From: Bryobacteraceae bacterium | GTDB taxonomy: Bacteria; Acidobacteriota; Terriglobia; Bryobacterales; Bryobacteraceae | Length of the DNA: 64,000 nucleotides | Assembly: GCA_025055455.1 (NCBI GenBank) | Contig: JANWXD010000003.1 | Location: forward strand, 1-64,000 | Direction of reading: 5' to 3' | The notes under the pieces: model-generated | The model's input: only the letters and a program-made list of their open reading frames with translations | The model's database searches: none | What the model was told of the DNA's origin: nothing | Translations under genes and position numbers: made by a program | Shown: positions 13,742 to 16,611 of the stretch, piece by piece | Layout: the number at the start of each line of letters is the position of its first letter | Position numbering within the stretch: position 1 is the first letter of the stretch

Positions 13742-14986
13742 ATGGCGTCGAGGCCGGCGCCCACACCGCGTAAGAGGCTGTCGTTTGCGGCCGCGAGCCT
13801 CCTGTTGGCGTGTGCTCCGGGGATGGCTCAGAGGCTGATCCAAAGTTCCGCCTCCAACGGTCTGGTGCGGCTCCACAACACGGATTGGGCCGTGTTGGAG
13901 CTCCAGGAACCGCGCAAGGATTTGCCGTGTAACGTAACTCCGAGCAAGCCGGTGTTGGGCTTTGACCTGAAGTTCCACGCCGGCTACGAAGTCAGCGTTC
14001 CATTGAGGGACTTGGCGGGCTCGGAGAACCTCCTCACCATCCTGTTTCGAGTGACTCCGGAGCAGAAAGGGGCCCAACCGGCGTATTTTGTCCAGCACAT
14101 TCGTGTCCCGCCCATCGAGCCCGACGCGCGAGGGGAAGCGTACTTGCAGGGCAGCTTCGACCTGGGCGAGGGCCGCTATCATGTCGACTGGTTGATGCGC
14201 GACCGCGCCGAGCGGGTCTGCTCGGCGTATTGGGATGTGGAGGCGGCCCTCTCTCCCCGGGATCGGGACATCGTCGTAGCCCTCGCGCCGGCTACGGTGC
14301 AGCCTTCCGATCCCGAGCCGTTCCGCGACGAGCCGCCTGTGCGGCGCGCCGCAGAGGAACCGCCCCTGAACGTCAAGGTCCTGATCAATTTCGCGCCGCA
14401 GAACTCCTACTCGGCAGTGTTGCAGCCCCTCGACACCAACGCCCTGGTTTCGATCCTGCGGAGCATCGCGCGCGAGCCCCGCATCGGCAAGTTTTCCATT
14501 GTCGCCTTCAACCTGCAGGAGCAGCGCATCGTCTACCGGCAGGACGGAGCCGAACGGATCGATTTCCCCGCTCTGGGCGAGGCGTTGCAGACGCTCAACC
14601 TCGGCACGATCGACATCAAACGCCTGGGTCAGAAGGATGCCGAGACCCGGTTCCTGGCGGAATTGATCCGCAGCGAAACGGCGGCGGAGGATCGGCCGGA
14701 CGCCCTCATCTTTGCGGGCCCGAAGGTTCTGCTCCCCGAGAAGATTCAGGAGGAAGACCTCAAGCAGATCGGCGGGCTGGAGTATCCGGTCTTCTACATG
14801 AACTACAACCTGTATCCGCAGGCCAACCCATGGCGGGACGCGATCGGCGCGGTGGTGAAATTTTTCAAGGGAACCGAATTCACCATCAGCCGTCCGCGCG
14901 ATTTGTGGCACGCCATTACGGAGATGGTTTCGCGCATCGTGCAGTTCAAGCAGCAACGGGCGTCGTCCAATGGTGTCTCGCGGTAG
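13742..14986 (+). CDS. Exported vWA-like protein of acidobacterial type
   Basis: A 414-residue protein with a Sec signal peptide (RLSFAAASLLLACAPGMAQ). An N-terminal beta-rich part (residues 30-200) is followed by a Rossmann-like region (about 215-400) that resembles a vWA fold without a clear metal site: LNVKVLINFAPQNSY, KFSIVAFNLQEQRIVY, RPDALIFAGPKVLLPE and LEYPVFYMNYN. I do not recognise an enzyme motif. A good Shine-Dalgarno (GGAAGGG) precedes the ATG. Its last 17 bases overlap the start of the exported methyltransferase-like gene, so the two are translationally linked and possibly act together in the periplasm. Confidence 0.6.
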   Translation: MASRPAPTPRKRLSFAAASLLLACAPGMAQRLIQSSASNGLVRLHNTDWAVLELQEPRKDLPCNVTPSKPVLGFDLKFHAGYEVSVPLRDLAGSENLLTILFRVTPEQKGAQPAYFVQHIRVPPIEPDARGEAYLQGSFDLGEGRYHVDWLMRDRAERVCSAYWDVEAALSPRDRDIVVALAPATVQPSDPEPFRDEPPVRRAAEEPPLNVKVLINFAPQNSYSAVLQPLDTNALVSILRSIAREPRIGKFSIVAFNLQEQRIVYRQDGAERIDFPALGEALQTLNLGTIDIKRLGQKDAETRFLAELIRSETAAEDRPDALIFAGPKVLLPEKIQEEDLKQIGGLEYPVFYMNYNLYPQANPWRDAIGAVVKFFKGTEFTISRPRDLWHAITEMVSRIVQFKQQRASSNGVSR

Positions 14987-15572
14987 TTCGCGGCTACAGG
15001 GGGCTGCGCTGTTGGCGCTGGCGGTGCTCCTAGCCGCCCCTGAGCCCCTCACAGCGCAGCCACGGCGCATTCGTCCCGATCACTGGCGGCATCCTGACAA
15101 TTTGGCGCCCTTCGTGGCCACCCCCGAGTTGGTGGCGGAGAAGATGCTGGAGGCGGCCGGAGTGAAGCCCGGGGAGGTGGTCTACGACCTGGGCTGCGGC
15201 GACGGACGCATCCTGTTCGTGGCAGCTCAGAAATTTCAGGCCCGCGCCGTTGGCATCGAGCTTTCCCCAGCCTTGGTCCAGCAGGCCTCCGAGAAGGCGC
15301 GGAAACTGGGACTCACCGAACGCGTCCGAGTGGTTCAAGGGAACTTGTTCGACGCCGATCTCCGCGAGGCCGACGTCGTGACGCTGTACTTGATGCGCCT
15401 CTCCAACGAGCGCCTGAAGCCGAAGCTCGTGCACGAACTGAAGCCGGGCGCTCGGGTGGTGTCGCACGATTATGAGATCATGGGCTGGAAAGCCGACCGC
15501 GTCGAGACGGTGAAGCTGCACCGCCGGCCGCACACCATCTACGTCTACCGGATGCCCCCCACGCTGGAGTGA
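14970..15572 (+). CDS. SAM-methyltransferase-fold protein with signal peptide
   Basis: A 200-residue class I methyltransferase fold preceded by an apparent Sec signal peptide (LQGAALLALAVLLAAPEPLTA, predicted cleavage before QPRR). The SAM-binding core is complete: VVYDLGCGDGRILF (motif I), AVGIELSPALVQQASEKA (motif II), RVVQGNLFDADLREADVVT, then LKPGARVVSHDYEIMGW. The arrangement, including the leading PFVATPELVAEKMLEAAGVK, resembles the FAM173/ATPSCKMT lysine methyltransferases. SAM is not normally available outside the cytoplasm, so either the leader is a membrane anchor facing inwards, or the protein binds another ligand. It overlaps the preceding exported gene by 17 bases. Confidence 0.75.
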   Translation: MVSRGSSRLQGAALLALAVLLAAPEPLTAQPRRIRPDHWRHPDNLAPFVATPELVAEKMLEAAGVKPGEVVYDLGCGDGRILFVAAQKFQARAVGIELSPALVQQASEKARKLGLTERVRVVQGNLFDADLREADVVTLYLMRLSNERLKPKLVHELKPGARVVSHDYEIMGWKADRVETVKLHRRPHTIYVYRMPPTLE

Positions 15573-15651: not shown

Positions 15652-16611
15652 ATGCCGGCATTCGATGTGGTGGGCATCGGCCTGAACGCCACCGACACCC
15701 TGCTGGTGGTACCCCGGTTCCCGGCCTACGCGGGCAAAGTAGCGATCGAAGACGAGCTCGTCAGCCCGGGCGGGCAAGTCGCCAGCGCCATGGTGACCTG
15801 CGCGCGCCTGGGCTTGCGCGTGAAGTACATCGGTACAGTGGGCGATGACGAACGCGGGCGCATTCAACTGGAAAGCTTGGTGGCGGAGGGGATCAATCTC
15901 GACGATGTTCAGGTGCGCGCCGGATGCCCCAACCAGAGCGCCTACATCGTCATCGACCGGTCCACGGGCGAGCGGACGGTCCTCTGGCGCCGACTCGAGT
16001 GCCTGCGCCTGGAGCCGGAGCAAATCCGCGAGGAGCAGATCACCTGTGCGCGCCTTCTCCACATTGACGGCCACGACACACCCGCCATCGAAAAGGCGGC
16101 CCGCATCGCAAAGTCCGTCGGAATCCCGGTGACCGTAGACGTCGACACGCTCTACCACGGCTTCGATCGGGTGCTGCCGCACGTGGATTATTTGATCGCC
16201 AGCTCCGAGTTCCCTACCCAGTGGACCAACGAGAGCGACCCGTTCAAGGCGTTGGAACTGATCCAGGAGGAGTACGGCATGCGGGTGGCGGCCATGACCC
16301 TGGGGGCCCACGGGGCGCTGGCGCGTGCGGAGGGACGCTTCGTTTACTCGCCCGCGTTCGTCGTCAACTGCGTGGACACTACGGGCGCCGGCGATGTCTT
16401 TCATGGGGCGTTTTGCTACGCCGTGCTGGCCCGGATGGACCTGGCGGAGGCGCTGGACTTTTCGAACGCCATGGCGGCGCTCAACTGCACGGCGCTGGGC
16501 GCCCGGGGAGGAATCCGCGATCAGACCGAGGCTCGGACGCTCATGCGGCGCGCCGAGCGGCGGGTGCATCCCGATTTCGCCGCCCACGCTTTCGTCACCG
16601 CACGGTCATGA
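15652..16611 (+). CDS. PfkB-family carbohydrate kinase
   Basis: A 319-residue ribokinase-fold kinase. The N-terminal motif is VSPGGQVASAMVTCARLGL and the C-terminal catalytic motif is CVDTTGAGDVFHGAFCYAVL with the catalytic aspartate in GAGD. It phosphorylates a sugar or nucleoside with ATP, but the substrate cannot be read from motifs. It heads an operon in which each downstream gene overlaps its neighbour; its stop overlaps the rhomboid start (ATGA). Confidence 0.9.
   Translation: MPAFDVVGIGLNATDTLLVVPRFPAYAGKVAIEDELVSPGGQVASAMVTCARLGLRVKYIGTVGDDERGRIQLESLVAEGINLDDVQVRAGCPNQSAYIVIDRSTGERTVLWRRLECLRLEPEQIREEQITCARLLHIDGHDTPAIEKAARIAKSVGIPVTVDVDTLYHGFDRVLPHVDYLIASSEFPTQWTNESDPFKALELIQEEYGMRVAAMTLGAHGALARAEGRFVYSPAFVVNCVDTTGAGDVFHGAFCYAVLARMDLAEALDFSNAMAALNCTALGARGGIRDQTEARTLMRRAERRVHPDFAAHAFVTARS

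Follow-up and report, generated by a model that had tools for sequence, protein, structure and literature searches.

Bacterial methylation that depends on SAM is assumed to take place in the cytoplasm, where SAM is synthesised. A locus in the 64,000-nucleotide stretch of Bryobacteraceae DNA analysed here (the window) raises the question of where a methyltransferase that begins with a signal sequence would act, and from where it would obtain its SAM. The first-pass annotation described a FAM173/ATPSCKMT-like methyltransferase with a Sec leader whose gene overlaps that of an exported vWA-like protein, and it offered an inner-membrane anchor facing the cytoplasm, a fold repurposed for another ligand, and real export of the cofactor as possible solutions. 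Both reading frames are present in the window with an overlap of 17 bp, and the features of the locus are as follows.

13742–14986, + strand: gene of the exported partner protein (414 aa; signal peptide, beta-rich region at the N-terminus, vWA-like alpha/beta domain at the C-terminus, no MIDAS motif)
13742–13828, + strand: predicted Sec signal peptide of the partner (residues 1–29, cleavage between GMA and Q)
14970–15572, + strand: gene of the exported aKMT/FAM173-like class I SAM methyltransferase (200 aa; profile, PDB and AlphaFold-model matches)
14970–14986, + strand: 17-bp overlap of the two genes, read as translational coupling
14970–15056, + strand: predicted Sec/SPI signal peptide of the methyltransferase (residues 1–29, cleavage between LTA and Q)
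15102–15569, + strand: conserved catalytic core of the methyltransferase (residues 45–200, modelled class I methyltransferase fold)
15186–15209, + strand: motif I DLGCGDGR, SAM binding (residues 73–80)
15652–16611, + strand: PfkB-type sugar kinase gene, downstream of the methyltransferase

Fold and family of the methyltransferase

The 200-aa protein is a class I SAM methyltransferase, and its closest characterised relative is the archaeal aKMT. It matches Pfam Methyltransf_31 (E 2.6e-14), the NCBIfam profile NF041081 for archaeal protein-lysine N-methyltransferases (E 1.2e-43, 148.7 bits) and the PDB structure of aKMT 5fa8 (E 9.3e-42), with 5fad and 5jwj also matched; together with motif I, these matches bear out the methyltransferase fold and SAM-binding motifs of the first-pass annotation. 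The AlphaFold model superposes on 5fad with a TMt of 0.91, an rmsd of 0.8 and 48% identity, and its pLDDT is 97–99 for most of the core (residues 51–190) and only 49–63 for the leader. Fold and motif I (D-L-G-x-G-D-G-R) place the protein among the aKMT/FAM173-like class I methyltransferases at the level of homology. The curated cut-off of NF041081 is 200 bits, so the protein is not a member of that equivalog and is a homologue only. As to the FAM173/ATPSCKMT label, the nearest characterised relative is archaeal aKMT, and FAM173 is the eukaryotic relative.

Two further copies are present in the window genome, and all three carry leaders. All 61 sampled genomes of the bacterial family hold the methyltransferase, in one to six copies each. 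The downstream PfkB-type kinase gene recurs at 13 of 38 related loci and is probably a matter of synteny, not a member of the system.

Conservation of the leader across bacterial relatives

The methyltransferase starts with MVSRGSSRLQGAALLALAVLLAAPEPLTA followed by QP, in which a positive n-region, a hydrophobic core and a c-region with an AxA-type site can be recognised, as required of a Sec/SPI leader and as judged by our own pattern rule. Relatives were gathered from named genomes and four phylum samples, giving 200 distinct cores (156 bacterial and 44 archaeal). With a moderately loose rule, a leader is found in 152 of the 156 bacterial relatives and in none of the 44 archaeal ones, which upholds the signal sequence proposed for this protein. 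Homologues starting at MLEAAGVKP without a leader would have refuted the proposal; instead, the leader precedes a conserved [LD][AV]P[FY]VPTP block in these 152. Because the loose rule proved uninformative as a control, being passed also by 48% of other long ORFs at the same loci, a strict rule was adopted. It is met by 130 of the 156 bacterial relatives, where codon-shuffled upstream sequence would give 6.5%, and again by no archaeal one (0/44).

Analysis of the four bacterial exceptions reveals that one (L168) has a leader missed by the rule and two (L175 and L180) look truly leaderless. The fourth (L045, LJUY01000078.1, from a 'Zixibacteria' MAG) lacks a leader, and its aKMT groups inside Bathyarchaeota on the tree; this contig is probably mis-binned archaeal DNA.

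The type of signal varies within the branch. Clear lipoboxes occur in Rokubacteria and Rhodothermota relatives (L097, L102, L108, L116, L117, L160 and L227). Leaders with a Tat-like RRxFL motif are seen in Betaproteobacteria and in part of the Acidobacteriota (L067, L087, L089 and L104); both calls are pattern-based. The four leader states (SPI, lipobox, Tat-like and none) need 14 changes on a tree of 102 rows, with lipobox and Tat-like leaders arising several times, although the tree was made by a quick method and many of its forks are weak. We base the case for export on the strict rule, on the contrast with archaea and on these switches of signal type; judged from such sequence patterns, the methyltransferase is almost certainly exported. 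Exported relatives span at least six bacterial phyla.

A glutamine directly after the predicted signal-peptidase site is very common (112 of 136 SPI leaders, as well as both window proteins), and many of the leaders concerned are from Acidobacteriota. The Q-rule of Bacteroidetes resembles these leaders and has been reported as unshared by most other phyla tested in that study (PMC5837995). In three relatives (L120, L131 and L145), the aKMT domain is fused to an additional domain on its N-terminal side, which begins with a hydrophobic or lipoprotein-like stretch.

The exported partner protein

The partner begins with MASRPAPTPRKRLSFAAASLLLACAPGMA followed by QR, and the glutamine at position 30 is invariant in 10 orthologues. 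In 57 of 60 genomes of the family, a partner orthologue (47–67% identity) is encoded directly upstream of the methyltransferase and on the same strand, and in two of the three genomes without an adjacent partner the locus is at a contig end. The median gap between the two genes is −4 bp over 39 loci. Distant partner paralogues without an adjacent methyltransferase are also present among the matches listed.

In the model of the partner (pLDDT 77.5), the N-terminal part looks beta-rich and the C-terminal part vWA-like, with only weak Foldseek support (ITIH1, the copine BON1, the PilB pilin, Ku and p34, with TMq at most 0.30). No Pfam or NCBIfam match was found for the window protein or for related proteins, and classification as a vWA protein by these profiles is rejected. 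The DxSxS motif of the MIDAS is absent from the partner, where the region reads NVKVLINFAPQNS. The earlier description of an exported vWA-like protein is thus supported as to the predicted leader but only partly as to vWA, which has the weak Foldseek matches in its favour and the missing profile match and MIDAS against it.

Proposed explanation and a candidate route for SAM

We propose that the product of 14970–15572 belongs to an exported branch of the aKMT/FAM173 family that is widespread in bacteria and probably methylates extracytoplasmic proteins; as a whole, this explanation is in our judgement equally apt to be right or wrong. The leader shared across phyla, the conserved SAM pocket and active-site surroundings, and the tightly coupled, conserved gene of an exported partner are all observed in the sequences, whereas catalysis outside the cytoplasm and SAM delivery are inferred. 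The protein would be translocated by Sec, cleaved before Q30, fold outside the cytoplasm and bind SAM there. It would then methylate an extracytoplasmic substrate, most likely protein lysines, with the 13742–14986 protein possibly serving as substrate or docking partner. At the level of the family only, SAM might reach the periplasm via a LAT/APC-type exchanger acting as a SAM/SAH antiporter, a route suggested by the presence of a permease gene of this type next to exported members in six phyla. For the window protein itself, data on localisation, binding or activity are lacking, and periplasmic SAM is not established.

The permease was first met beside a betaproteobacterial tandem array (L190:518-1897) and recurs beside exported aKMT genes in many phyla (for example at L233, L062, L086, L078 and L118). 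It matches Pfam AA_permease_2, and its closest solved relatives are SLC7 light chains and BasC, which makes it LAT-type. The close form (E<1e-128) is present in 15 of 20 genomes tested, exactly one in each, and in all 15 it adjoins an exported methyltransferase on the same strand; these genomes come from Acidobacteriota, Bacteroidota, Rhodothermota, Myxococcota, Pseudomonadota and Armatimonadota. The 20 genomes were chosen partly for having the methyltransferase, and therefore the independent tests are two phylum samples. Among 148 Bacteroidota genomes the permease occurs in 5, all within the 6 that are methyltransferase-positive, and in none of the 142 negatives (hypergeometric p about 1e-8, calculated by hand). 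Among 249 Pseudomonadota genomes it occurs in 4 at E<1e-120, all within the 6 positives, but this cut was chosen after the gap was seen. At the looser E<1e-60, four of eight permease genomes lack the methyltransferase, and those four have a form that is 41–42% identical.

Members of the LAT/SLC7 group are amino-acid exchangers, and SAM is an alpha-amino acid. The fungal amino-acid permeases Sam3 and Gap4, of the APC superfamily, carry SAM (PMC5177730) and in this respect resemble the proposed role of the LAT permease. However, they are uptake carriers of the fungal amino-acid permease family, while the bacterial permease is LAT/SLC7-like. SAM transport by the LAT-type permease in the linked lineages is inferred from gene pairing and co-occurrence only, and we offer it as a tentative possibility.

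It is also conceivable that the permease does not supply SAM and is itself the target of methylation, as the carrier ANT is for FAM173A (PMC9006661), or imports a methylated product, in keeping with its LAT-type relatives being amino-acid transporters. However, no column that is mainly lysine was found among 28 aligned permeases, on which ground the permease is rejected as a lysine-methylation substrate. Import of a product is not excluded, and such a non-supplying role remains doubtful but alive. If the permease is instead a SAM carrier, many bacteria may run a dedicated extracytoplasmic methylation system, in which an exported aKMT-type methyltransferase is combined with a LAT-type antiporter (supplying the enzyme with SAM and clearing SAH, a counterpart of the mitochondrial SAM carrier) and with lineage-specific partners such as the vWA-like protein. 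This wider scheme is speculative, and we consider it unlikely to hold in full.

Of the options raised at the outset, real cofactor export thus gains a concrete candidate in other lineages, but not in the window genome. The dedicated LAT form was not found there; the four APC permeases of this genome show 37% identity or less to it, and none adjoins any of the three methyltransferase copies. The SAM source of the window enzyme is unresolved because no LAT permease lies beside these copies. One of the four is 57.5% identical to a second APC type that is encoded divergently beside exported copies at L060, L092 and L111, which is a weak link to the methyltransferase. The gene of this second-type permease directly precedes one that reads as folD, of one-carbon metabolism (L266:3427-6346, G000:C11).

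Tandem arrays of about 7–8 exported aKMT-like genes are present in betaproteobacterial MAGs (L190:1894-11177 and 15659-16576 in G189:C40; L191:1600-10200 in G179:C45). The array genes have an extra C-terminal domain of about 110 aa without a Pfam match. Encoded alongside the arrays are a membrane protein resembling spermidine synthase and a lipoprotein from a different methyltransferase family.

The SAM pocket and catalysis

Residues D73, G75, G77, D78, G79 and R80 are conserved at 0.99–1.00 in the exported copies, and so the loss of key SAM-binding residues in orthologues, which would have counted against the first-pass annotation, has not occurred. Outside the SAM loop, the exported copies also keep N146 (0.97), P151 (0.99) and W173 (0.97), which are conserved in the archaeal enzymes. 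H166 is at 1.00 in archaea but at 0.84 in the exported copies, and from this difference in the alignment catalysis may have drifted in some of them.

The protein of PDB 5bxy, from Salinibacter ruber, was crystallised with SAH and is 45% identical to the window protein. Over residues 2–154 it is 100% identical to G735:C1:1299674-1300132, and the full ORF of its gene (L233) begins MSRLRFLSVVLLALGLLLGHGPRSGYAQQ, a Sec-type leader, with some 49 residues absent from the construct. Since this protein natively has a leader, the structure shows SAH in the pocket of an exported family member, albeit in a construct made without the leader. The entry is labelled an RNA methyltransferase in the PDB, whereas by sequence it is an exported aKMT-family protein; no support for the label was found in this analysis.

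We consider it very likely that the exported methyltransferase binds SAM or SAH, although there are no binding data for the window protein itself. Without activity data, we lean only slightly towards catalysis outside the cytoplasm, and lysine as its target is an inference that falls somewhat short of probable. The exported fold might alternatively bind an extracellular ligand (SAM, SAH or a different nucleoside or amino acid) for scavenging or sensing, without methylation. The SAH held in 5bxy would suit such a binder, SAM outside the cytoplasm is not established, and an exchanger beside the exported copies is also compatible with ligand uptake. However, N146, P151 and W173 (with H166 at 0.84) are kept beyond the SAM loop, which is more than a pure binder needs, and we regard a non-catalytic role as unlikely. 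The near-invariant pocket, and the structure of an exported member with SAH, in addition speak against repurposing for a ligand other than SAM.

Site of action and start codon

Alternatively, the precursor could methylate substrates in the cytoplasm before export, or an internal start could yield a cytoplasmic form: the Tat-like leaders of some lineages would permit folding with SAM bound before export, and the window gene has a TTG at residue 45. Against this, the leaders are mostly of Sec type, which implies export in the unfolded state; an ATG near the start of the core is found in 10 of 156 bacterial versus 23 of 44 archaeal genes, and a TTG at the residue-45 codon in 11 of 73. Activity before export therefore appears quite improbable. 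Dual use of an internal start is rejected, since that start is not conserved.

The anchor option, in which the leader is an uncleaved signal anchor or a reverse anchor and the enzyme stays in or on the cytoplasmic side, would make SAM supply trivial. It has a precedent in the mitochondrial FAM173 proteins, which have a putative TMD before the methyltransferase domain and act on the matrix side (PMC9006661). However, the net charge of the leaders is +1.98 before the hydrophobic core and −0.09 after it, which predicts that the C-terminus is out, and their median uncharged or apolar run is 16 residues. An AxA site followed by Q occurs in 112 of 136 SPI-type leaders, and lipobox and Tat-like leaders are used besides. 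True export is favoured over an anchor because swapping of signal types is sensible only if export itself is kept, and cytoplasm-facing anchoring is very unlikely. A mis-annotated start, with the true protein beginning at an internal codon without a leader, has the absence of a strong Shine-Dalgarno before 14970 in its favour but can practically be discounted, being ruled out, as far as sequence can, by leaders in 152 of 156 bacterial relatives and both paralogues of the window genome, by starts at the end of the upstream gene at the 39 loci (median gap −4 bp), and by the conserved FVATPELVAEK segment that a start at MLEAAGVKP would remove.

Relation to known systems

The window protein resembles aKMT/aKMT4 of Sulfolobus islandicus (5fa8, 5fad, 5jwj; NF041081) in fold, motif I and active-site surroundings, with 48% identity. 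However, the archaeal aKMT-type enzymes have no leader (0/44), whereas the window protein has one and is under the NF041081 cut-off, and it does not meet the description of a cytoplasmic, leaderless aKMT. The Salinibacter ruber 5bxy protein is closer in kind, being natively exported, at 45% identity and solved with SAH, but its gene adjoins the LAT-type permease where the window gene adjoins the vWA-like partner.

FAM173B/ATPSc-KMT and FAM173A/ANT-KMT are distant aKMT homologues with a hydrophobic segment before the methyltransferase domain (PMC9006661). They differ from the exported branch in being topologically cytoplasmic (matrix side), with an uncleaved TMD and with ATP synthase subunit c and ANT as targets; the cleavable-type leaders and C-out charge bias of the bacterial proteins do not fit that arrangement. 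Rickettsia PKMT1/2 and Acinetobacter KmtA methylate lysines of surface proteins in Gram-negative bacteria, and the paper describing this mentions no signal peptide (PMC11784438). The exported branch may share the theme of surface-protein lysine methylation with these outer-membrane PKMTs, a likeness behind which there is no sequence comparison.

In the open-licence literature, no description of the exported aKMT branch or of its pairing with the LAT permease was found, and a search there for periplasmic, exported or secreted bacterial SAM methyltransferases or SAM export gave only pathogen effectors, PilD and the outer-membrane PKMTs as relevant. Fold and reaction type are already known; the exported branch and its LAT pairing appear undescribed in that literature. 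That exported methyltransferases are conserved in at least six phyla, with their pockets intact, implies that methyl chemistry takes place in the periplasm or that the fold has been put to a new use. With the paired exchanger, the source of the SAM becomes a matter for a direct transport experiment, and for an exported member a crystal structure, 5bxy, is already available.

The window genome encodes another leader-bearing protein (L005; G000:C83:1669-2568, minus strand), which has two methyltransferase domains of a different family; exported SAM-type folds thus extend beyond aKMT.
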